Source: Aquificaceae bacterium (lineage in GTDB: Bacteria > Aquificota > Aquificia > Aquificales > Aquificaceae). From it: DNA of 13,955 bases. The stretch's first letter is position 1. The number at the start of each line of letters is the position of its first letter. Shown one piece after another: positions 1-9,557 of this stretch. Below the pieces are notes generated by a model. That model was not told where the DNA came from. It worked only from the letters and a program-made list of their open reading frames with translations, and did no database searches. The position numbers were made by a program, and so were the translations under genes. The stretch lies in contig JALWEK010000059.1 of assembly GCA_027014185.1 (NCBI GenBank), forward strand, positions 1-13,955, written 5' to 3'.

Positions 1-1
1 C

Positions 2-2410
2 TTTGGGGGAGCGATGAACCAGAACAACAACCTCGACTCTGTTCAGATGAACAACAACGCCCAGCAGAACGCCAAAGCCGCCGATCTTATAGCAGCGGCT
101 ACGAGCGCAGTGAACGCGGCCATAAACCTCATGTGGAGCGATTCATCTCCCACTGAGCCGAGTAGTGCTGTAGAAGATGAATGGCTGGGTTTGCCCAAAC
201 CCGTCGAACCTAACTCTCCTAACGACTTTAACAACGAGTACACTCAGAAGAACATTCAAACGGCTAAAAATCACGTGAACACCGCAAACCACGAGGACGC
301 CGAAGAAGATTATGCTGTAGCAAAGAACGAAGACAAACAGTCACAGGATATATATAACAACGTAGGGTACAGTGCACAACCAGATAGGGCGGGAAGCGTA
401 TCGGGCCAGGACAACAACAACAACTCCGTCCAGCTAAACAACAACGCCCAGCAGAATGCTAACGGTATAATGGTCGAGAATATAGCACAATCTGCATCCA
501 ACACAGGTCTGAACATATTCGCATCAGCAACGATAAGCGATACCGAAGGACTTCAGAAGAACAACCAAACCGCTAAGAACTTCGATAACTTCGCGGAAGG
601 TGAAGATGAAATATCCTCCTTCAATAGGGAGAGCGGCGATACGCAGTCTGTAATGAACGTAAGTGGAGAAAATGTAGATTATGTGGTGATCTCTGACCAG
701 GACAACAACAACAACTCTGTCCAGCTCAACAACAACGCCCAGCAGAACGCCACCGGCATAACCGTTGCTAACGTTGCCAACAGCGCCAGGAACGCCGGGG
801 TGAACATCCAGTATTCCGACGATATAGTTGACAGCTCGGTAACTCAGAGGAACAGACAGACTGCTAAGAATCACAACAACGAAGCTGAAGCTGACGATGG
901 GTACGCTTACGCCTACAACAAGAACAAGGAGAAGCAGAGAATCGTTAACGATGAGAATCCCAATGAAGACTCCGTTAGTGGATCAATAACTGACCAGGAC
1001 AACAACAACAACTCTGTCCAGCTCAACAACAACGCCCAGGAGAACGTTAAGGGTATAGAAGTCAAAAACAGCGCACAGTCGGCTTCCAACACTGGTGTGA
1101 ATATTCTCGCATTCACAAGGTCACTTGTGGAAGATAACGATTATAACTCCCTAACCCAGAAGAACAACCAAACCGCTAAGAACATGAACAACACTGCTGA
1201 GGGAGAAGAAGAAGCAAGGACAATGAACTCAGAAGCTGGAGACAAGGTAACCCAGTACGTTAATAACAATGTGAACATAGACAACCAGAACAACAACAAC
1301 AACTCTGTCCAGCTCAACAACAACGCCCAAAGGAACGCTAGGGCCCTCACCATGGTTAACATGGCAAACTCCTCTCACAACGTAGGTCTCAACATACTAG
1401 TTGATGAAGCTCCCGGCGGAGGAAGCTCCACGCCACCTCCTGATCCTACTAAAGGGATCTACAACACTGAAGTGGAGCAGCTCAACGATCAGACCTCCGA
1501 AAACCATGTGAACAGGGCTGAGTCGGACGAGATGGCGGTTGCGAAGAACGACAGCAAACAGACCCAGAACATAATTAATGCGGATTACGATCCAACGCTT
1601 AATCAAATAAGCATCTCAGGTCAGGACAACAACAACAACTCTGTCCAGCTCAACGGCAACGCTCAGCAGAACGCGAAGGCCCTCGAGATGACCAATATGG
1701 CGGTCTCGGCGGTGAATATGGGCCTTAACCTGGCAGTGTTCACAGGTATCACATCGAGTGATCTGGAACAGACGAACGAGCAGACTGCGGAGAACTTCAA
1801 CAACTACGCGGACTCATACCCCGGAGGTAATGCTACCGCTAAGAACGTTGAGAACGCGGAAAACCCCGGTCAGTACATTCACAACGTACACGCTGTGACC
1901 TCCGATCAGGACAACAACAACAACTCCGTCCAGCTCAACAACAACGCCCAGCAGAACGCGGAAGGTCTTTCCATAGCCAACGTAGCTAAGGTAGCTTTCA
2001 ACTCTGGATTCAACGTACTGTGGCTCGATGGCAGTGCTTCCGACAGTTCAATAAGCCAAGAGAATGAACAGACAGCGGGTAACCACAACAACTATGCGAC
2101 GGCAAGCGAAGTCTCCCTCGCTATGAACGTCAACAAACAGACTCAATTCATAGAGAACTGCTACTGCGCTACAGTAACAGGTCAGGACAACAATCAGAAC
2201 TCCGTCCAGCTAAACAACAACGCCCAGCAGAACGTAAGGGGATGGCATGTCCTCAACGGAGCTACTTCAGCCGTGAACATGGGAACCAATGCGATGATCG
2301 TAACCGGAACGGTAACAGGAACTACCCTTACCCAGGTTAACATTCAGGAGGCTGTAAACTTCTCCAACACAGCTTCTGGCAGCAACGCTACTGCCGGTAA
2401 CGTGAGGTAA
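2..2410 (+). CDS. Asn/Gln-rich repeat protein, FapC-like amyloid subunit candidate (5' partial)
   Basis: The frame is open to the left edge, and the first ATG (14) lies inside a repeat unit with no signal peptide after it and GGGGGAG only 2 nt away, so the true start is probably upstream of the window. The visible ~800 residues are eight units of about 92-129 residues. Each has three conserved blocks: A, QDNNNNSVQLNNNAQQNA followed by N-x-A-x-S-A-x-N-x-G-x-N-I; B, xQxNxQTAxNxxNxA; C, AxAxNx(4-7)QxIxN. Between blocks lie acidic, variable linkers. The only cysteines form a CYC near residue 714. Known of the family: Pseudomonas FapC has repeats of the type N-x-G-x-N-[IV]...Q-x-N-x-A joined by variable linkers and forms extracellular amyloid. 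The similar motif and the downstream C39 peptidase and coiled-coil barrel genes support a FapC-like role. Alternatives are an Asn-rich adhesin or other surface beta-solenoid. Amyloid formation is inference. Confidence 0.7.
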   Translation, partial: FGGAMNQNNNLDSVQMNNNAQQNAKAADLIAAATSAVNAAINLMWSDSSPTEPSSAVEDEWLGLPKPVEPNSPNDFNNEYTQKNIQTAKNHVNTANHEDAEEDYAVAKNEDKQSQDIYNNVGYSAQPDRAGSVSGQDNNNNSVQLNNNAQQNANGIMVENIAQSASNTGLNIFASATISDTEGLQKNNQTAKNFDNFAEGEDEISSFNRESGDTQSVMNVSGENVDYVVISDQDNNNNSVQLNNNAQQNATGITVANVANSARNAGVNIQYSDDIVDSSVTQRNRQTAKNHNNEAEADDGYAYAYNKNKEKQRIVNDENPNEDSVSGSITDQDNNNNSVQLNNNAQENVKGIEVKNSAQSASNTGVNILAFTRSLVEDNDYNSLTQKNNQTAKNMNNTAEGEEEARTMNSEAGDKVTQYVNNNVNIDNQNNNNNSVQLNNNAQRNARALTMVNMANSSHNVGLNILVDEAPGGGSSTPPPDPTKGIYNTEVEQLNDQTSENHVNRAESDEMAVAKNDSKQTQNIINADYDPTLNQISISGQDNNNNSVQLNGNAQQNAKALEMTNMAVSAVNMGLNLAVFTGITSSDLEQTNEQTAENFNNYADSYPGGNATAKNVENAENPGQYIHNVHAVTSDQDNNNNSVQLNNNAQQNAEGLSIANVAKVAFNSGFNVLWLDGSASDSSISQENEQTAGNHNNYATASEVSLAMNVNKQTQFIENCYCATVTGQDNNQNSVQLNNNAQQNVRGWHVLNGATSAVNMGTNAMIVTGTVTGTTLTQVNIQEAVNFSNTASGSNATAGNVR
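17..2236 (+). repeat. Eight imperfect direct repeats (conserved 57-bp core, ~276-387 bp period)
   Basis: The conserved DNA core encodes block A of the repeat protein. Copies begin at 17, 404, 695, 992, 1283, 1619, 1904 and 2180, giving periods of 387, 291, 297, 291, 336, 285 and 276 bp. The cores are nearly identical at the nucleotide level (runs of AAC codons, then CTCAACAACAACGCCCAGCA), while the linkers between them have diverged far more. This suggests strong selection on block A or repeated homogenisation by recombination. Copy 1 and copy 5 are the most diverged at their left ends. These are coding repeats, not a CRISPR array, as the spacing is too long and the frame is kept throughout. 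Confidence 0.93.
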
Positions 2411-2417
2411 GTTCGCC

Positions 2418-2446
2418 GGGGGGGGTGCCCCTTCCCCCCCTTTTTT
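2418..2446 (+). terminator. Rho-independent terminator/attenuator after the repeat protein gene
   Basis: Eight bases after the repeat protein's stop codon there are eight G's, a short loop, seven C's (2434-2440) and then six T's (2441-2446). The stem is at least 7 G-C pairs with a U tract, the classic intrinsic terminator form. The next gene in the same direction begins at 2461 with its own ribosome binding site, so partial read-through would give much more of the repeat protein than of the downstream accessory proteins. Partial read-through is inference. Confidence 0.85.
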
Positions 2447-2460
2447 AAAGGAGAAGAGAA

Positions 2461-2793
2461 ATGGTAAGACTCATAGCCCTGCTGCTTCTTATAACGGGAA
2501 GCCTGATGGCACAGAAGAAGGAAGATACCTTCATGGTCTCCTTCGGGACTGGAGGCGTTAAGTACAAGCTCATAGACAGCACCTGTTACTCTTACGTTCG
2601 CAGGTATCCGAAGGACGAGAAGAGGATTCCAAACATGCTCAACAACACCATAATCTCAAGCGTCTATCAGGCCGGCAGGGACTACAGGAAGAAAAAGGCC
2701 AACGGATTCTTCAACGTAAAGTTCTTCTGGCAGGTGGTCGGAAAGGAAAGGATCATAGTCCAGGTCTGTGGAGACGTCGTAAGGAGGGAATGA
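2461..2793 (+). CDS. Small exported protein of unknown function in the Fap-like cluster
   Basis: 110 residues. Residues 1-17 form a Sec signal peptide (positive start, Leu/Ile-rich core, cleavage probably after LMA), so the mature protein is about 93 residues in the periplasm or outside the cell. It has two cysteines, C42 and C103, which could form a disulfide. The C-terminal part (about 65-107) alternates a charged helix (SSVYQAGRDYRKKKA) with two predicted beta strands (NVKFFWQVV, RIIVQVCGDVV); this loosely recalls YbjQ/RcsF-like small domains but the resemblance is weak. I do not recognise the family. It lacks the Asn/Gln repeat motif, so it is not itself a fibre subunit by sequence; a chaperone or assembly role like FapA's would fit its position but is a guess. 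It starts after a good ribosome binding site (AAAGGAG, 2447-2453) and overlaps the next gene's reading frame. Confidence 0.85.
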   Translation: MVRLIALLLLITGSLMAQKKEDTFMVSFGTGGVKYKLIDSTCYSYVRRYPKDEKRIPNMLNNTIISSVYQAGRDYRKKKANGFFNVKFFWQVVGKERIIVQVCGDVVRRE

Positions 2794-2795
2794 AC

Positions 2796-3194
2796 ATGAG
2801 AACTATTCTAAGTGTACTCGGTTTTATGGTTATAACAAGTATCGCGGGAGCGGGAGAGATGGTCCTTGTCTCAGACGAGGAACTCGACTCCGTTTACGCT
2901 CAGGGACTTAGCGATGACGCGATAATATACACTACGGACTCGATAGATCCTTCACTGCTCGGTGACAACCCTACAATTATCCAGTTTCCTGAGCAGATGG
3001 GGTTGAGCGGAGAGGTACTTATAAGTGACAACGCCCAGCAGAACGCCTTTAACCCTGTGAACGCGGCCAACTCGGCTATAAGCAACGTATATAACATATT
3101 CGTGATAATCGAGTCGAACTGGGAGAACGTGAACGTAAACATCAACAACAACGTCGATGCGATAAACAGCTCTAACATACTGGGGGCCTACTGA
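2796..3194 (+). CDS. Small exported protein with one repeat motif; FapB/nucleator-like candidate
   Basis: 132 residues from the preferred start. Two ATGs are available, 2790 and 2796. GGAGG at 2783-2787 is 2 nt from the first and 8 nt from the second, so 2796 is preferred. A signal peptide spans about residues 1-20 (RTILSVLGFMVITSIAGA). A conserved-looking acidic segment follows (VSDEELDSVYAQG). Near residues 77-103 there is one copy of the motif found eight times in the large repeat protein: SDNAQQNA, then NxANSAxxNxxNI. The tail is Asn/Val-rich (ENVNVNINNNVDAINSSN). Sharing the core motif at much smaller size is how FapB, the minor subunit and proposed nucleator, relates to FapC, so a minor subunit or nucleator is the likely role (inference). 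Its stop codon overlaps the next gene's ATG by one base, indicating translational coupling. Confidence 0.8.
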   Translation: MRTILSVLGFMVITSIAGAGEMVLVSDEELDSVYAQGLSDDAIIYTTDSIDPSLLGDNPTIIQFPEQMGLSGEVLISDNAQQNAFNPVNAANSAISNVYNIFVIIESNWENVNVNINNNVDAINSSNILGAY

Positions 3195-3895
3195 TGAAGG
3201 TCCTTCTCCCGCTCCTCTTCGTCTTACTGTTAGGTTGCAGTTCCAAGTGGGAGGTAGGAAAGTCTGGCACGAGGGTTTACATGGGCTCCGGGATATTCGG
3301 CACAGTTTCCCTCAGCCCACAGGTAAAACCCCTCGAAGAGGTCAAGTTCAGCAAGGTTGTTAGACAGCAGTACGATTACAGCTGCGGATCGGCCGCGGTA
3401 GCGACCATACTCCACTACTACCTGAACAAGCCCTTGGATGAGATGTCCGTCATAAACCTGCTCTTTAGGGTCGGTAACGTTGAGAAGATAAAGAAGAGGA
3501 AGGGTTTCTCCCTCCTCGACATAAAGAGGTTCTTTGAAGCCCTGGGCTACAAAGCCAAGGGAGTCAGGACCAACGTGGAAACTCTTGCCCAGGTGAGGAA
3601 ACCGGCAATAGTTACGATAGTCATAGGCAACTACAAGCACTATGTGGTCTTCAGAGGAGTCCACGAAGGGAAGGTGGTGGTCTCAGATCCCGCTTTCGGC
3701 GTTGCCCTTCTACCAGTGAACGAGTTCAACAAGATGTGGTACAAGAACATAGCCCTCATAGTGGATCACTACGATATAGATATGACGCCCCTCGCGGTCA
3801 GCGAGGATGAGCTGCTGATTGTAAAAAAGGACCATCTTAGAAAAAATCTGATAGACTATGTACTGCCGAGTTACAGGATGAATAAGGATTTTTGA
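3194..3895 (+). CDS. C39-type cysteine peptidase lipoprotein, FapD-like
   Basis: 233 residues. The N-terminus is a lipoprotein signal with lipobox LLGC (C15), so it is probably membrane-anchored facing the periplasm. The domain at about 53-190 has the papain-like C39 (bacteriocin-processing) pattern: Q58 for the oxyanion hole and C64 in QQYDYSCGSAA, H149 in NYKHYVVFRG, and D165 in SDPAFG. All expected catalytic residues are present, so it should be active. A stand-alone C39 protease without an ABC transporter is what FapD is in Pseudomonas fap operons, where it is needed for fibre secretion. Here it lies between a repeat-motif protein and a beta-barrel, the FapD position relative to FapF. Substrate here is unknown; the repeat proteins or the barrel are the obvious candidates. 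The start overlaps the upstream stop by one base. A generic peptidase unrelated to amyloid remains possible. Confidence 0.85.
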   Translation: MKVLLPLLFVLLLGCSSKWEVGKSGTRVYMGSGIFGTVSLSPQVKPLEEVKFSKVVRQQYDYSCGSAAVATILHYYLNKPLDEMSVINLLFRVGNVEKIKKRKGFSLLDIKRFFEALGYKAKGVRTNVETLAQVRKPAIVTIVIGNYKHYVVFRGVHEGKVVVSDPAFGVALLPVNEFNKMWYKNIALIVDHYDIDMTPLAVSEDELLIVKKDHLRKNLIDYVLPSYRMNKDF

Positions 3896-4891
3896 ATGGG
3901 AAAGAAGCTGCTGGCTTTGCTGACGGCCTTGGGGATAGCCTACTCCCAGACAGGCCAGGACAGGGAAGCCCAGGAGGAAGCTAAGAAGGCCCTTACCCGC
4001 CTTGAGAAGGATTACGTGCTCTTGAAGAAAAAACAGTTCGAAGTAGAGTACACATTCTCCTTCACCTACTACTCGGCCAATCAGATATACCTCGAGAGCT
4101 TCGCTATACTGGACCCCGTGTTCCTTACACTTGGTAAGTTTGGCATCGAGAGGGCCAGAAGGCACATATTCGTGAACAGTCTAGCCTTCAGGTACGGTGT
4201 GCTGGACAACCTACAGTTCGATGTAAACGTACCCTACGTTTACAGGTACGACAGATTGTCGAGCACTAACGATCCTACCCAAGAATATACTTTAGAAAGA
4301 GCAGGTCTGGGAGACATATCGGTAAACGTGAGCTTTCAGCCTATCAGAGAGACAAAATCGAGGCCGGCGATAATCCTCAACTTTGGATACAAGTTCAAGA
4401 CCGGTAAGAGCCCTTACGAGATCGATCCCCGGAAGGACGTTCCCACCGGGACAGGATACAACTCGGCCAAGTTCAGCGTGAGCTGGGTAAAGAGCGTGGA
4501 CCCCGTGGTGGTCTTCGGATCCCTTGGATATACCTATAATTTCACCGAAGACGTGGATCAGACAGTGGACGATGAAGGCCAACCCCGTACCTTGGACAAG
4601 GTCTATCCCGGTGACAACATCAACCTGGCTGTGGGTTTCGCCTACGCTTTGGCTTACAACTTCTCTATGAACGTTCAGTACATAAACACATACGTCCTCC
4701 CAACTTACATAAAAGAGCAGGGGAAACCCAAATCGAGGGTTGCGAACTCAACCTTCAACCTCGCCATGCTTAAGCTAGGAACGGGCTGGGCACTCACGCC
4801 CAAGGTACCACTCAGCTTCTCTCTGTATGTGGGTCTCACCCAGGACTCTCCCGACTATACGGTTGAGCTCAGGATACCCTTCAAGTTTTGA
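3896..4891 (+). CDS. Outer-membrane beta-barrel with N-terminal coiled coil, FapF-like secretion pore
   Basis: 331 residues. A signal peptide spans residues 1-17 (cleavage near AYS). Residues about 20-47 form a heptad-like charged helix (DREAQEEAKKALTRLEKDYVL). From about 48 to the end the chain alternates aromatic and polar residues in long strands typical of an outer-membrane barrel, ending in the aromatic C-terminus PFKF. The barrel resembles the PF13557 family (named for phenol meta-pathway transporters), to which FapF-type barrels are similar in character. Known of FapF: a 12-stranded barrel with a plug and an N-terminal trimeric coiled coil that exports Fap subunits. The same coil-plus-barrel layout right after the C39 peptidase supports this call. 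The ATG directly follows the upstream stop; AGGA 7 nt upstream serves as ribosome binding site. Confidence 0.78.
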   Translation: MGKKLLALLTALGIAYSQTGQDREAQEEAKKALTRLEKDYVLLKKKQFEVEYTFSFTYYSANQIYLESFAILDPVFLTLGKFGIERARRHIFVNSLAFRYGVLDNLQFDVNVPYVYRYDRLSSTNDPTQEYTLERAGLGDISVNVSFQPIRETKSRPAIILNFGYKFKTGKSPYEIDPRKDVPTGTGYNSAKFSVSWVKSVDPVVVFGSLGYTYNFTEDVDQTVDDEGQPRTLDKVYPGDNINLAVGFAYALAYNFSMNVQYINTYVLPTYIKEQGKPKSRVANSTFNLAMLKLGTGWALTPKVPLSFSLYVGLTQDSPDYTVELRIPFKF

Positions 4892-5037: not shown

Positions 5038-5053
5038 TGGCATAAAAATTGCA
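5038..5053 (+). promoter_or_regulatory. Sigma-54 (-24/-12) promoter of the polysaccharide synthase operon
   Basis: TGGCATAAAAATTGCA carries the invariant GG and GC separated by exactly 10 bp (GG at 5039-5040, GC at 5051-5052) and is close to the TGGCAC-N5-TTGCA consensus. The predicted start of transcription is near 5064, giving a leader of about 19 nt that still includes the GGAGGTG ribosome binding site (5071-5077) before the GTG start at 5083. Three dyads upstream provide activator sites. Confidence 0.85.
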
Positions 5054-5082: not shown

Positions 5083-7236
5083 GTGAACGTAAATATAGAG
5101 CGCCTGAGAAGAGCCCTGGTCCTTGTTTCCGTGGGGGTATCCCTGTACTACCTAATCTGGAGGCTTGGCACACTGAATGAAGATGCCATGTTCTTTTCCT
5201 CCCTAGTCTACGGGGCTGAGCTGTACGGCTTCATAGCAAGCCTCATGTTCTTCTACATGGTGTGGAAGTTGCCCAAAAGACAACCAAAGGATCCCCCTGA
5301 AGGCCTCAAGGTGGACGTCTTCATACCCACGTACAACGAGAGCCCGGACATTCTAAGGAAGACAATCCAGGGAGCCCTCGGCATAGAGTACCCGCACAGA
5401 ACCTACGTCCTAGACGATGGAAACAGGCCGGAGATAAGAAAGCTCTGTGAGGAGCTCGGCTGTGAGTACATAGCCAGGTTGAAGAACACGAACGGGAAGG
5501 CTGGGAACCTCAACAACGCCCTCGAGAGAACTGACGGGGACTTCATAGTTATATTCGACGCCGACCACGTCCCAGAGCCCGACTTTCTCCACAAAACCTT
5601 GGGTTACTTTGAAGACGAGAAGGTCGCCTTCGTACAAACGCCCCAGGATTTTTACAATATAGACTCTTATGAGCACAGGATATCTAAGGGAAAGCTCTGG
5701 CACGAGGAGTCCCTCTTCTACAAGATCATACTCCGCGGAAAAGACAGGATAAACTCAACCTTCTTCTGTGGTAGCTGTGCGGTTATCAGGAGAAAGGCTC
5801 TTGAGGATGTTGGGGGCTTTGCTACGGGGACTGTTACTGAAGACATCCACACCTCTATAAGGCTCCACGCCAAGGGCTGGAAGTCGGTTTACCATCCCGA
5901 ACCGCTCGCCTACGGAGTTGCACCTTCTACATACGACCCGTATAGAACCCAGAGGGAGAGATGGGGAAAAGGGGCGATGCAGATACTCTTCAGCAAGGAC
6001 AGCCCGCTTATAATCAGGGGCCTCACACTATCTCAACGTATTAGCTACCTAGCTTCGATGGCCACATATCTCGACGGCTTTCAGAAGGCGATCTTCTACA
6101 CAGCCCCAGCCGTGGTTCTTTTCACGGGTGTTTTCCCAATAAGTGTGAGCCTGAGAGAGTTCTTACCGGTGTTCCTGCCCCACATACTACTCTCTCTCTG
6201 GGCCTTCGACGAGATGTCGAGGGGGCACGGAAGGTTTATCCTCCTTGAGCAGTATAACGTGGCCAGGTTCTTCACCTTTATGAAGTCTATCCTAGGGGTG
6301 CTCGGAAAGAGGGCGGCCAGGTTCAAGGTAACGAGCAAGGAAAACGGAAGGAATGTGTCTATCAAGGGACTTGTGCCCCAGATGATAGTTTTTGGCGCCA
6401 GCCTGCTCGGAATACTCTACGCCCTCGCTAACCTAGGGAACCTTCCCAATAAAAATCTTTACGTTGCAAATATGTTCTGGGCCTCGATTAACACAGCCTT
6501 TGCCGGGCTTTCACTTTTTTGGACCCTGCGCAAGAAACACCAGAGAGAAAAGTTCCGCTTTCCGGCTAACTTCCCCGCTATGGCAGAGGTGGGTGGTGTA
6601 AACACAGCCGTTACAGTAGAGGACCTCCATGAGGGCGGAGCCGCCATACTCTCCCAGACACCTTTCGAGCAGGGGAAGGATATAAGGATCAACTTAAGTT
6701 TCCAGGACGAAAAACTGGAGCTAAAGGGCAGGATACTTTATGTTAAGGAGATCGAGGATCTTGGCATATACCGGCTCGGCGTGAAGTTCGAGGGAATAAC
6801 CATGGAGGAGGTGAGGATGATAGATCTGTTCAACTTCCGCTTCCTCCTGAAGAAGTACATGGAAGAGCACGATAGACCAGAAGCCACTCCTATCTCACTA
6901 ATAGTATCTCTCTTCGAGAAGGGTCTTTCCCGCAAAAGATCCAAAAGGTTCGAGGTGCACATGCCCGGCTTTATCTTCATGGAAGGAAAGTTCGTCCCAT
7001 ACACAACCGAGGATGTGAGCGATAGGGGAGCCAAAATCCTCACCTACGAACCTATAAACAGCAAGTACCTCGCCCTCAACCTGGGGAGGGGTGACGAGGA
7101 TTACATACTAAACGGCAGGGTTGTTTGGTCCAAAGAGATCAGCTTTTATGGTATAAAAGCTTACAGGTACGGGGTGAGTTTGAGTGGTAGCTCCCATCAC
7201 GAACCGGATCTTCACGATATGTCGCTTACAACGTAA
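5083..7236 (+). CDS. BcsA-like processive glycosyltransferase with two PilZ domains
   Basis: 717 residues starting at GTG, with GGAGG 7 nt upstream. Two TM segments lie at about 10-60. The family-2 catalytic domain (about 75-300) shows all hallmarks of cellulose synthase-type enzymes: D111-D112-G113, DAD at 159-161, FFCG (227-230), TED (252-254) and QRERW (290-294). More TM segments follow at about 335-350, 360-375, 430-450 and 462-480. PilZ 1 (about 488-590) has RxxxR at 488-492 but DLHEGG (514-519) where DxSxxG is expected. PilZ 2 (about 618-702) has KxxxR and an intact DVSDRG (644-649). Inner-membrane BcsA makes beta-1,4-glucan from UDP-glucose, activated by c-di-GMP on its PilZ domain; a second PilZ is unusual. 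No BcsB or BcsC is present in the window, so the polymer may be cellulose or another beta-glycan. It forms an operon with the next gene (5 to 11 nt gap). Confidence 0.88.
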   Translation: MNVNIERLRRALVLVSVGVSLYYLIWRLGTLNEDAMFFSSLVYGAELYGFIASLMFFYMVWKLPKRQPKDPPEGLKVDVFIPTYNESPDILRKTIQGALGIEYPHRTYVLDDGNRPEIRKLCEELGCEYIARLKNTNGKAGNLNNALERTDGDFIVIFDADHVPEPDFLHKTLGYFEDEKVAFVQTPQDFYNIDSYEHRISKGKLWHEESLFYKIILRGKDRINSTFFCGSCAVIRRKALEDVGGFATGTVTEDIHTSIRLHAKGWKSVYHPEPLAYGVAPSTYDPYRTQRERWGKGAMQILFSKDSPLIIRGLTLSQRISYLASMATYLDGFQKAIFYTAPAVVLFTGVFPISVSLREFLPVFLPHILLSLWAFDEMSRGHGRFILLEQYNVARFFTFMKSILGVLGKRAARFKVTSKENGRNVSIKGLVPQMIVFGASLLGILYALANLGNLPNKNLYVANMFWASINTAFAGLSLFWTLRKKHQREKFRFPANFPAMAEVGGVNTAVTVEDLHEGGAAILSQTPFEQGKDIRINLSFQDEKLELKGRILYVKEIEDLGIYRLGVKFEGITMEEVRMIDLFNFRFLLKKYMEEHDRPEATPISLIVSLFEKGLSRKRSKRFEVHMPGFIFMEGKFVPYTTEDVSDRGAKILTYEPINSKYLALNLGRGDEDYILNGRVVWSKEISFYGIKAYRYGVSLSGSSHHEPDLHDMSLTT

Positions 7237-7247
7237 AGGATATGGTA

Positions 7248-7922
7248 ATGAATAAACTTATATTGGCTCTTTTAATGCTGAGTTTCTCCGCCTTTTCACA
7301 GCCCTTCAGCTTCTTGTCGGGTTCCGAGGCAGACACAAAAGGTCAGTCCTACTCCTACATAGGATTTATAGCCGAGAAGCCTGTAAGCTCTAACATTTCA
7401 ATACTTGGGAAAGTCTGGGGAGATTACCTTATATACAAGTTCGAGCAGGGAAACGTGAACGTTAGGGCTGAGGCTCCAGCGTTTCAAATCTCGGGAGGTG
7501 TAAAGAGGAGATACGACGCCTGGAGTATATCCCTTTGGGCTGGCTGGGAGAGAAGGGATACAAAGGTTAGCCCGGAGGTCCCAGGGATAGAGGGTAAGGG
7601 GATTAAAGACTCCCTGGTACTCCAGCTGGAGTTGTTCGGGAAGCTCGGAAGAAATTTTTCCACCAGCTTCATAACCAGTTTCAGCTCGGCCACATCGTAC
7701 CTCTGGTCTAGGGCTAGGCTGAAGAGGTCCGTGCTGGGAGGGAAGTTCCATCTCGGGGCGGAGTTGATAGGGCAGGGGAATAAAGACTACAGGGCCGTCC
7801 AGAGCGGGGTCCTGCTAGAGACCTCTTTAGGGAAAGCAACACTTGGCGTCAGGGGTGGGTACAAGAACAGCTCGAAGGGGGATTCTCCCTACGCCGGAGT
7901 TGAGCTTTATATAGGCTTTTAA
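7248..7922 (+). CDS. BcsS-like outer-membrane beta-barrel protein
   Basis: 224 residues from ATG 7248. An ATG at 7242 is in frame but only 1 nt after the AAAGGA ribosome binding site, while 7248 is 7 nt away, so 7248 is preferred. A signal peptide spans residues about 1-17 (KLILALLMLSFSAFSQ). The mature part alternates polar and hydrophobic residues in strands (SYSYIGFIAEK, GKVWGDYLIYKF, WSISLWAGWERR) and ends in an aromatic residue (YIGF), as outer-membrane barrels do. The size, the WGDY motif and the position after a bcsA-like gene resemble the cellulose-synthesis protein BcsS family. The role of BcsS is poorly known; export or secretion of the polymer across the outer membrane is inference. 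Its stop codon overlaps the convergent activator gene by 4 bp. Confidence 0.7.
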   Translation: MNKLILALLMLSFSAFSQPFSFLSGSEADTKGQSYSYIGFIAEKPVSSNISILGKVWGDYLIYKFEQGNVNVRAEAPAFQISGGVKRRYDAWSISLWAGWERRDTKVSPEVPGIEGKGIKDSLVLQLELFGKLGRNFSTSFITSFSSATSYLWSRARLKRSVLGGKFHLGAELIGQGNKDYRAVQSGVLLETSLGKATLGVRGGYKNSSKGDSPYAGVELYIGF

Positions 7923-9340
7923 GATAGGCCGTACTTCTCCATCAACTTGTAAACGGTGGGCCTGCTCACCCCGAGCATCGAGGCCATCTTGCTAACGTTA
8001 CCCCCGGTTATCCTGTAGGCTTTCTCGATGAGCTCCTGCTCGAGCTTCTCTATATGCTCCTTCAGGTTGAATATACCCTTGCCTGCTATCTCCTTTGACA
8101 CCTTGTCGGCGTCTATGTCCAGGTCTCCAGCGTCTATGTACTTCTTGTCGGTAAGCACAACAGCCTTCCTCAGAACGTTTATCAGCTCCCTGACGTTCCC
8201 TGGCCAGCTGTAATTCCTTATAAGTTCGGATGCATCGTCGGTGAAGCCCAGGATCTCCTTACCCTGTTCTTTAGAGAACTTCTCCAGAAAGTATTTGGCC
8301 ATTATGATAACGTCATCCTCTCTATCGCGCAGCGGGGGAAGGCTTATAGTTAGAACCTTGAGCCTGTAGTAGAGATCCTCCCTAAATAGACCCTGTTCAA
8401 CGAGTTCCTTGAGGTTCTTGTTCGTGGCGGCTATAACCCTGACGTCCGCCTTGATCCCCTTGGTCCCTCCTACCCTTTCAAAGCTCAGATCTTCCAGAAA
8501 TCTGAGCAGCTTAGCCTGTAGCTCTATCGGTAGCTCACCCACCTCGTCCAGGAACAGGGTCCCTCCATCGGCAAGCTCAACTTTCCCTACCTTCCTCCTC
8601 TCCGCTCCTGTAAAGGCTCCCTTCTCGTATCCGAAGAGCTCCGCCTCCAGAAGTTCCTTCGGTATGGCCGCGCAGTTTATAGCTACAAAAGGTCCTTTCT
8701 TCCTATGGCTCCTCTCGTGGATAGCCCTCGCTGTCAGCTCTTTACCTGTGCCCGTCTCTCCCAGTATAAGGACAGGATAGTCCGTGGGGGCGTACTTTCT
8801 TATCAGATCGAAGACTTTCTTCATAGAATCGCACGACCCGATGAACTCTACCTTCTCCTCCTGGCAGACCTTCCCCTTTATCTCTTCGGGGAGCTTGCCC
8901 GTTATTAGATCACCCACCTTTATCCTGCGCAGTGCGCTTACCAGATCGACCCTTGTGAAGTCCAGGGGCATGTGACAGCTGGGACACTCTTGGATATCGC
9001 TAGCCACACTACTTTTACAGTAAGGGCATCTACCGTTACTTCTCACCTGGGAGGTAAGAAAGGAGCCTATAGTCTGGGATATGATCATATCCTCTTCGTT
9101 GAAGAGGACAACAGCCCTGTTAGAACCTTCCTTCCGGTAAATCCTTCCGTTAAGCACGTTCTCTCTGTTGTTTATCCTGAGCTTGAGCTTGACCCAGTCC
9201 TTGTCCTTGCAGCTCTCCCAGTTCTCCAGCCTGAACTTTACGCCGAACAGGGATATATCTTCTCCCAGGGCTTTAAGCCATCCGTTCCTGCACTTAACAT
9301 GTATCTCTTCCTTAAAAGGTACCCTGGGTGCTAGTCTCAT
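7919..9340 (-). CDS. Sigma-54-dependent activator with N-terminal PilZ domain and zinc ribbon
   Basis: 473 residues from ATG 9340, which has GGGAGGG 7 nt upstream; a longer frame starting at TTG 9388 has no ribosome binding site. Order of domains: PilZ (1 to about 95) with RLAPR (RxxxR, 2-6) and DISLFG (DxSxxG, 28-33), the c-di-GMP binding signature; zinc ribbon CPYC...CPSC (C105, C108, C119, C122); AAA+ domain (about 165-400) with Walker A GETGTGKE (194-201), the sigma-54 contact loop GAFTGA (241-246), Walker B DE (265-266) and arginine-finger region REDLYYRL; Fis-type HTH (about 429-473). It should hydrolyse ATP to open sigma-54 promoters. The PilZ domain replaces the usual receiver or GAF domain, so c-di-GMP is the likely signal (inference). 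The convergent bcsA-like operon has a sigma-54 promoter, making it the natural target. Confidence 0.9.
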   Translation of the reverse strand: MRLAPRVPFKEEIHVKCRNGWLKALGEDISLFGVKFRLENWESCKDKDWVKLKLRINNRENVLNGRIYRKEGSNRAVVLFNEEDMIISQTIGSFLTSQVRSNGRCPYCKSSVASDIQECPSCHMPLDFTRVDLVSALRRIKVGDLITGKLPEEIKGKVCQEEKVEFIGSCDSMKKVFDLIRKYAPTDYPVLILGETGTGKELTARAIHERSHRKKGPFVAINCAAIPKELLEAELFGYEKGAFTGAERRKVGKVELADGGTLFLDEVGELPIELQAKLLRFLEDLSFERVGGTKGIKADVRVIAATNKNLKELVEQGLFREDLYYRLKVLTISLPPLRDREDDVIIMAKYFLEKFSKEQGKEILGFTDDASELIRNYSWPGNVRELINVLRKAVVLTDKKYIDAGDLDIDADKVSKEIAGKGIFNLKEHIEKLEQELIEKAYRITGGNVSKMASMLGVSRPTVYKLMEKYGLS

Positions 9341-9346
9341 AAAGTA

Positions 9347-9354
9347 CCCTCCCT
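9347..9354 (-). promoter_or_regulatory. Ribosome binding site deciding the activator start
   Basis: On the minus strand AGGGAGGG lies 6-7 nt before ATG 9340. The alternative TTG start at 9388 has no Shine-Dalgarno sequence. The shorter start also places the PilZ RxxxR motif right at the N-terminus. Confidence 0.8.
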
Positions 9355-9392
9355 GACTATAATCTAATCTAGCTACTATTTTATTCAAAGGC

Positions 9393-9484: not shown

Positions 9485-9557
9485 AGGCGGGTAGCTCAGT
9501 TGGGAGAGCGCCGCCCTTACAAGGCGGAGGTCGCAGGTTCGAGTCCTGTCCCGCCTA
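9485..9557 (+). tRNA. tRNA-Val (anticodon UAC)
   Basis: 73 nt with a full cloverleaf. The acceptor AGGCGGG (9485-9491) pairs with CCCGCCT (9550-9556), discriminator A. The D arm is GCTC/GAGC with loop AGTTGGGA. The anticodon stem is CCGCC/GGCGG with loop CTTACAA, giving anticodon TAC (reads GUA, valine). The T arm is GCAGG-TTCGAGT-CCTGT with one G-U pair. CCA is not encoded. The last three bases are also the stop codon (on the other strand) of the convergent epimerase gene. Confidence 0.97.

Follow-up and report, generated by a model that had tools for sequence, protein, structure and literature searches.

A Fap/Fil-Type Fibre Locus beside Cellulose Genes in Aquificota and the Leader Shared by Its Repeat Subunits and a Small Peptide

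Introduction

Which export system is encoded by the first 4,891 bases of the Aquificaceae contig JALWEK010000059.1 (C59; assembly GCA_027014185.1), and on what does its peptidase act? The window analysed is this entire contig of 13,955 bases, from a genome of 1.65 Mb that is 92% complete. An earlier note, made from the letters alone, had read the stretch as a divergent relative of fap, the functional amyloid system of Pseudomonas, in a probable thermophile. The assignment of the Aquificota locus to the Fap/Fil system type was found to be well supported, and the locus is probably a fibre export system of this type that is coupled to cellulose. A leader motif shared by its repeat subunits and a small peptide is, judging from sequence, the likely target of the peptidase. 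The five genes named in the note were all recovered as open reading frames (ORFs) on the plus strand, tightly packed (lengths in amino acids, aa):

2..2410, + strand: FapC-like major subunit, with 8 repeats whose anchors lie 92-129 aa apart, an NCYC pair near the C-terminus and the 5' end off the contig edge
2461..2793, + strand: 110-aa exported protein, a possible periplasmic helper without a family match, present in 18 of 23 Aquificota loci
2790..3194, + strand: FapB-like minor subunit with a signal peptide, the leader motif and a single FapC-type repeat
2871..2906, + strand: double-glycine-like leader SDEELDSVYAQG, residues 28-39 of the FapB-like protein
3194..3895, + strand: FapD/FilB-type C39 peptidase with a lipoprotein-like signal and Q58/C64/H149/D165
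3896..4891, + strand: FapF/FilC-type outer-membrane barrel with a short N-terminal region, assigned by profile, PDB, model and tree

In the passages of the literature drawn on here, Fap was found only in three proteobacterial classes by Dueholm 2013, where other repeat numbers are known from Vibrio and Acidithiobacillus (PMC3792158). Co-located fapD and fapF homologues were reported from five further phyla by Rouse 2018 (PMC6173800), so the pair is not new outside Proteobacteria. In a survey from 2025, the phyla said to have Fap or curli operons include Pseudomonadota, Desulfobacterota, Nitrospirota and Bacillota, and three repeats are described as nearly universal, a 'fixed' three-repeat system (PMC12822426). 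Three imperfect repeats of 38-39 aa are given for 94% of published FapC and FapB (PMC12392863). FapD is essential to Fap fibre secretion, with its substrate termed unclear in one source (PMC5557850) and only thought to be FapE and FapF in another (PMC12822426). Among the articles listed by searches of the open-licence PMC literature, none was, by title and start of abstract, on an Aquificota Fap system or on this leader.

Barrel and Peptidase

The barrel matched the NCBIfam models of FapF (NF058560; 1.3e-47, 162.5 bits, cut-off 700) and FilC (2.2e-45, 155.7 bits, cut-off 630), and the peptidase those of FilB (2.3e-44, 151.8 bits, cut-off 475) and FapD (NF058616; 3.7e-34, 117.9 bits, cut-off 330), the equivalog level being reached by none of the four matches. 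The FapD model exceeded its cut-off in 0 of 136 Aquificota genomes. In the PDB, FapF crystal sequences were matched by the barrel at about 7e-32 and PCAT C39 domains by the peptidase at 2.8e-8. In the comparison with the FapF crystal structure that the note had proposed, made with the AlphaFold model of the barrel (mean predicted local distance difference test, pLDDT, of 84), the first 18 PDB rows were all FapF (best E 5e-24, template modelling (TM) scores 0.75/0.83), followed by a COG4313 channel at 1.5e-11. On these profile and PDB matches the barrel and the peptidase are homologues of FapF and FapD, as had been claimed, and neither clustered with unrelated families. A match to PF13557 (phenol degradation) concerns a broad barrel family, and its function was not adopted. 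Chance similarity among low-complexity, Asn-rich proteins is hardly credible as the source of the resemblance; such repeats can inflate weak similarity, but the barrel and the peptidase are not low-complexity, their E values reach 1e-47 and the gene set recurs in 23 loci, which already contradicts that reading.

Mapped by hand on alignments, E51 of the barrel stands at the position of FapF E111 and a basic R326 at that of K401, and the second PTG is kept; the first PTG reads K-T-G, and the FF pair of the FapF plug is not conserved. The note had described a coiled coil plus a barrel. Of the two, the barrel is clear; the stretch from the signal peptide to the barrel start, however, measures only about 30 residues, and the model places a single helix of middling to low confidence at residues 3-35, so the coiled coil was not borne out. 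The N-terminus is short in 22 of 22 Aquificota rows compared with Aeromonas, Polymorphobacter and Croceicoccus, the long periplasmic coiled coil being absent; Vibrionaceae barrels are likewise short (342-344 aa). For the peptidase, the predicted Q58, C64, H149 and D165 were confirmed and were invariant across 11 aligned sequences, which include the window and four proteobacterial ones. A lipobox-like LLGC is present in the window peptidase; some relatives are without one.

When 36 barrels were placed in a tree, those of Aeromonas, Vibrionaceae, Cupriavidus and Alphaproteobacteria, with one further row, formed a Fap clade apart from the rest, which comprised a Fil clade, Syntrophorhabdaceae rows and Aquificota intermixed with Campylobacterota. 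The window barrel lay outside both the Fap and Fil clades, the Aquificota barrels were not monophyletic and several inner forks were weak. That the locus belongs with the fil genes (filABC) of Acinetobacter rather than with Fap is unlikely, although several observations favour it: the peptidase scores higher with FilB than with FapD, the Aquificota barrels and FilC share one side of a 97/91 branch, and among 58 leader N-termini, 13 matched DUF6160 and one matched FilA. However, the midpoint root of the tree serves for drawing only, the barrel scores slightly higher with FapF than with FilC, and FapB/FapC-type repeat proteins are present. The putative pilus locus fil resembles the Aquificota genes in its FilB and FilC matches and in a FilA protein that begins with a similar ALSAATGQ motif. 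It differs in the separate starred clade made up of FilC and its relatives, and the FapB/FapC-type repeats are a feature of the Aquificota.

Repeat Subunits

The note had described a large repeat protein and a single-motif protein, Asn-rich and with longer repeats than in Pseudomonas, and this description held. The FapC-like protein of the window contains 19.7% Asn and 7.7% Gln. A hidden Markov model (HMM) of FapB relatives matched 14 of 19 FapC-like ORFs above the HMMER inclusion threshold, the window ORF among them (5.8e-8), so that FapB is seen to carry one copy of the FapC repeat. The first part of this HMM covers the signal peptide and leader; as the window FapC is without its N-terminus, its match rests on the repeats. 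The FapC-like and FapB-like proteins are accordingly read from their sequences as internal homologues, which matches the relation of FapC to FapB in Fap. Each of the 19 ORFs, some of them partial, has 2-12 anchor matches, and the published pattern of three imperfect 38-39 aa repeats was not found, with 8 units at the spacing listed above in the window FapC and one in FapB. An NC[YFN]C pair lies near the C-terminus in 14 of the 19; those of G001, G012, G103, G104 and G106 (numbers denote genomes) are without it. Against the proteobacterial FapB proteins, a profile of the FapB set gave weak matches among 723 ORFs (best E 0.0005 in region L055, next 0.053 in L058).

Family membership suggests that the subunits would form amyloid. 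A non-amyloid beta-solenoid surface adhesin or fibre, exported by the same barrel and peptidase, is quite an unlikely alternative. The FapC model is all-beta, and its fold search gave no PDB match at E <= 0.001; a second look at that search listed beta-helices and not 9u4u, which excludes nothing. AlphaFold stacks repeats readily, which counts against the adhesin reading, as do the repeat common to FapC and FapB, as in Fap, and the conserved spacing of Asn and Gln, which by eye is like that of published Fap repeat motifs. Furthermore, the published Pseudomonas FapC fibre is itself termed a beta-solenoid (PMC12392863). The 110-aa protein, for which the note had considered FapA, gave no Pfam or NCBIfam match at E <= 0.1, no FapA-specific model having been applied, and that identification found no support.

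The Shared Leader and the Small Peptide

A small peptide of about 70-100 aa is encoded upstream of FapC, and behind its signal peptide, as behind those of FapC and FapB, lies the motif [E]-L-x-x-[VI]-x-[GA]-[GQ], which resembles double-glycine (GG) leaders, the classical targets of C39 peptidases. Examples are DELDEITGGG (genus g3) and ELEEVYGGF (Persephonella) in small peptides, DELDDISGG (FapC of g3) and EELEDVSAQG in FapC, EELDSVYAQG in FapB and SDEELDMVSAKG in a FapB-like match named Candidatus Gorgyraea. A strict regular expression, derived from the same proteins and missing five known members, matched 54 ORFs out of 1417 in the 23 loci. They comprise 21 FapB, 21 FapC-type proteins (14 with the repeat anchor, and 7 FapC-like ones assigned by eye in g3), 11 small peptides and a single unrelated protein. 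A looser form of the motif was present in 79 of 79 FapB proteins; L occupies -7 in 77 of them, position -4 is V or I in all 79, and A and Q stand at -2 and -1 in 78 and 65, respectively. Positions -2/-1 are mostly A-Q or G-Q in FapB and FapC outside g3, G-G in some small peptides and the long FapC of g3, and A-G or S-G in other small peptides; of the 13 small-peptide forms listed, 12 have A, G or S followed by G, and one has G-R.

Leader models were compared with 58 leaders, to which the FapB of G002, G106 and G010 and the small peptides of G016 and G007 had been added by hand. At E <= 1, Pfam gave L_biotic_typeA (8 matches), Lactococcin (5, best 2.6e-5), Mersacidin (2) and Bacteriocin_IIc (1), and NCBIfam gave VP1 (4), cerein (3), ComC (3), lacticin 481 (2) and bacteriocin_sig (2). 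Lactococcin PF04369 matched a FapC N-terminus above its cut-off (3.3e-5), and TIGR01847 fell exactly on the leader of a small peptide, weakly (0.28, below cut-off). Unrelated families also matched single leaders, one at 3.8e-4, and the FapB leader of the window itself was matched by no leader model. For 90 control N-termini (94 candidates minus four hand-added leader members), no GG-leader family was among the matches listed (25 of 40 and 25 of 63 families). A profile of the N-termini matched 25 of 136 genomes, which were all 23 with barrel and peptidase and 2 of the 113 others: G096, with one FapC-like protein and a weaker C39 paralogue, and G044, with a marginal match (E 0.008) to a 648-aa protein that is unrelated by eye. 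Since the profile was trained on rows from the 23 loci, weight is placed on its near-absence elsewhere and on its new finds (G055, G000 contig C80, G054, G027, G034 and G087).

The small peptide has a conserved IILWDE motif after its leader in 12 of 23 loci by regular expression, which also matched one unrelated opposite-strand protein in G001, and additionally in G001 (DIILWDE), contig C80 (L076) and L081 (L numbers denote loci and regions). A 46-aa remnant in G055 keeps IILWDE without a leader, and the small-peptide stretch of G102 contains an in-frame TAG. Contig C80 (4,024 bases, from the same genome as the window) carries on its minus strand a zero-mismatch sigma-54 site, a small peptide with the leader PVLDSIFAG followed by KIILWDE, and, cut off by the contig end, a FapC N-terminus with LNEEELEEVSAQG. 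These sequences identify C80 as the holder of the 5' end of the window operon; by eye, from the close relative G005, about eight residues are apparently missing between C80 and C59.

In ten proteobacterial plasmid regions, a GG motif was found behind the signal peptide in 5 of 10 genes following the C39 peptidase (L055 ELATMRGG, L057 DEMSSLRGG, L058 EVLARQRGG, L059 SSLEEYRGG and L062 SEMSAIRGG). L054 has ELAHLRGR, L060 and L063 have weaker forms, and no such motif was seen in L056 and L061. The L057 protein matched NCBIfam FapE weakly (0.0053) over its N-terminus. On the 6.5-kb plasmid p5 of Acidithiobacillus (L063), a glycosyltransferase was observed next to a split C39 peptidase and an exported protein in the FapE position.

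The leader could alternatively be a helix on which a chaperone, the peptidase or the barrel docks, and not a cleavage site, a reading that is possible yet doubtful. Q at -1 in most of the FapB set favours docking, as does published mass spectrometry that points to no processing of Pseudomonas FapA-D. On the other side stand the G at -1 in nearly all small-peptide forms listed, the matches of some leaders to independent GG-leader models and the way the leader follows barrel and peptidase by genome, although docking predicts the last likewise. The shared leader remains the likely target of the peptidase. The motif resembles the leaders of class II bacteriocins and type A lantibiotics, which are cut by PCAT C39 domains, in its E-L-x-x-V/I-x-G-G form and in the peptide models that match some leaders; unlike these, the Aquificota leader comes after a Sec signal peptide, and the peptidase is an exported enzyme that stands alone. 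A wider proposal, with somewhat less than an even chance of being right, is that the Fap/Fil class uses a two-part export tag, a Sec signal followed by a double-glycine leader that is read by a periplasmic C39 enzyme; FapD would act on the fibre proteins themselves as their leader peptidase, and the small GG peptide, encoded early in the operon and the most canonical of the substrates, would be a dedicated peptide that is secreted or serves in gating. If true, this would explain the RGG motifs of some proteobacterial proteins in the FapE and FapB positions and the separate C39 clusters of Hydrogenothermaceae.

Distribution in Aquificota

FapF was found in 24 of 136 Aquificota genomes, one being a 44-residue piece at a contig edge, and the other 23 gave strong FapD matches (E <= 1.1e-31). 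The gene order suggested as a check by the note repeats in these 23 loci, which hold FapF (23), FapD (23), FapB (22) and the 110-aa protein (18). The FapC and FapB genes of G055 are separated from the barrel by about 120 kb. In G054 (L033), FapC is present as three tandem genes of about 1,090-1,112 aa, with a FapB behind each. No gene lies between fapD and fapF in the window; the FapE model (NF058559) matched 0 of 136 genomes, which is uninformative as its controls gave no match either. Proteins of Hydrogenivirga caldilitoris and Persephonella marina EX-H1 were among the protein matches. The relatives are records of metagenome-assembled genomes (MAGs) from Aquificaceae, Aquifex and Persephonella together with H. 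caldilitoris, and the guess of a thermophile agrees with them, since Aquificaceae, Persephonella and H. caldilitoris are thermophiles.

A second, stand-alone C39 peptidase was observed in L064-L069 of Hydrogenothermaceae. In L065, L067, L068 and L069, it adjoins an exported protein of 275-303 aa that may be a barrel, and an exported protein of 136-186 aa with a leader-like motif (e.g., LSDRELKKTKG) is also present; in L064 and L066, it lies amid other genes.

Cellulose Genes and Regulation

Downstream of the barrel, the window carries the following features:

5038..5053, + strand: sigma-54 (-24/-12) promoter-like site TGGCAT-N5-TTGCA, 45 bp ahead of the cellulose synthase start
5083..7236, + strand: BcsA-type cellulose synthase catalytic subunit with PilZ stretches, by profile matches
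7242..7922, + strand: BcsS-like cellulose biosynthesis protein (PF17036, 1.7e-15), present in 8 of 23 loci
7919..9388, - strand: PilZ - sigma-54 AAA+ activator - Fis-type helix-turn-helix (HTH) regulator, convergent with the fap and bcs genes, present in 14 of 23 loci

Sites of the pattern TGGCAC-N5-TTGCW were used only with at most one mismatch, because the count in the window at up to three mismatches was not above chance (43 vs 41.7 expected). The site at 5038..5053 is the sole one in the window at this threshold. Such sites stand ahead of a subunit gene or of the first fap gene in all 18 genomes that could be assessed (G000, through C80, G001, G002, G007, G012, G016, G018, G027, G034, G046, G054, G055, G058, G087, G098, G102, G104 and G106), a tally that leaves out G005, G006, G010, G015 and G103, whose contigs begin in, about 100 bases before, or later than fapC. 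They were found ahead of FapC copies 2 and 3 of G054, with none seen before copy 1; before the small-peptide remnant and before the unlinked subunits in G055; about 300 bp before the small peptide on a separate contig in G087; and ahead of a 93-95-aa gene that precedes the small peptide in G018, G027 and G034. Over 342 kb, 36 sites were counted vs 5-9 across five mononucleotide shuffles, the sites not being independent because many of the genomes are related.

By tblastn, 10 of 23 loci have the cellulose synthase after FapF (8 by ORF search, because two of the genes are open at the contig end), and sigma-54-like sites were found ahead of bcsA in 10 of these 10 loci. In the 13 loci without bcsA, no such site lay within 600 bases after FapF. 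Homologues of the window activator are convergent in 14 of 23 loci, and in Persephonella loci, the activator stands directly after FapF without bcsA; its PilZ match was below the Pfam cut-off in both relatives checked. The PilZ domain would here bind cyclic di-GMP (c-di-GMP). In enterobacteria, curli and cellulose are an amyloid fibre and a polymer produced together under c-di-GMP control; their fibre system is unrelated, and in Aquificota the genes are adjacent, with similar sigma-54-like sites before both. In G054, a second small-peptide gene (L078:3753-3974) was observed opposite a PilZ-sigma-54 activator, far from the fap locus, an arrangement which hints that small peptide and regulator belong together. 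A tRNA-Val (TAC) lies at 9485-9557 of the window, between the regulator and a sugar-nucleotide epimerase gene.

Proposed Mechanism and Significance

The Fap reading of the note stood in its FapF and FapD homology and in the repeat shared by FapB and FapC; it found no support for FapA and does not extend to membership of the canonical fap family. By its sequences the locus is outside that family, because the scores are far below the cut-offs, the barrel belongs to neither the Fap nor the Fil clade, and the repeats and FapF N-terminus differ. The double-glycine-like leader, the small peptide on C80, the sigma-54-like sites and the part played by the adjoining cellulose synthase and PilZ-sigma-54 regulator go beyond the note. 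Pseudomonas fapABCDEF and the Aquificota genes have in common the FapF-type barrel, the C39 peptidase with conserved active-site residues, the internal homology of FapB and FapC and the Asn/Gln-rich repeats. The Aquificota locus is unlike fap in its longer FapC repeats, single-repeat FapB, short FapF N-terminus and low scores, and likewise in the leader on FapB and FapC, the small leader peptide, the sigma-54-like sites and the PilZ regulator.

In the fibre export system considered probable here, the Sec pathway would bring the subunits into the periplasm, where the peptidase would recognise the shared leader. It would most likely cut the small peptide, with the leaders of FapB and FapC either cut or only docked. 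The barrel would then release the subunits, which would assemble as Asn/Gln-rich beta fibres. A PilZ input of c-di-GMP type on the sigma-54 activator would probably turn on the fibre operon and the neighbouring cellulose synthase.

With the shared leader, the question of the FapD substrate becomes testable, as exact candidate substrates and cut sites can be named. Among Fap-like systems, the locus represents a further lineage, from a thermophilic phylum, whose repeat numbers and gene content depart from the 'fixed' three-repeat description. Its fibre genes are tied to the cellulose genes by the type of promoter and by a likely c-di-GMP regulator. For materials work, heat-adapted fibres would be of interest, and as H. 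caldilitoris is a cultured relative that presumably carries the operon, the system could be tested there.

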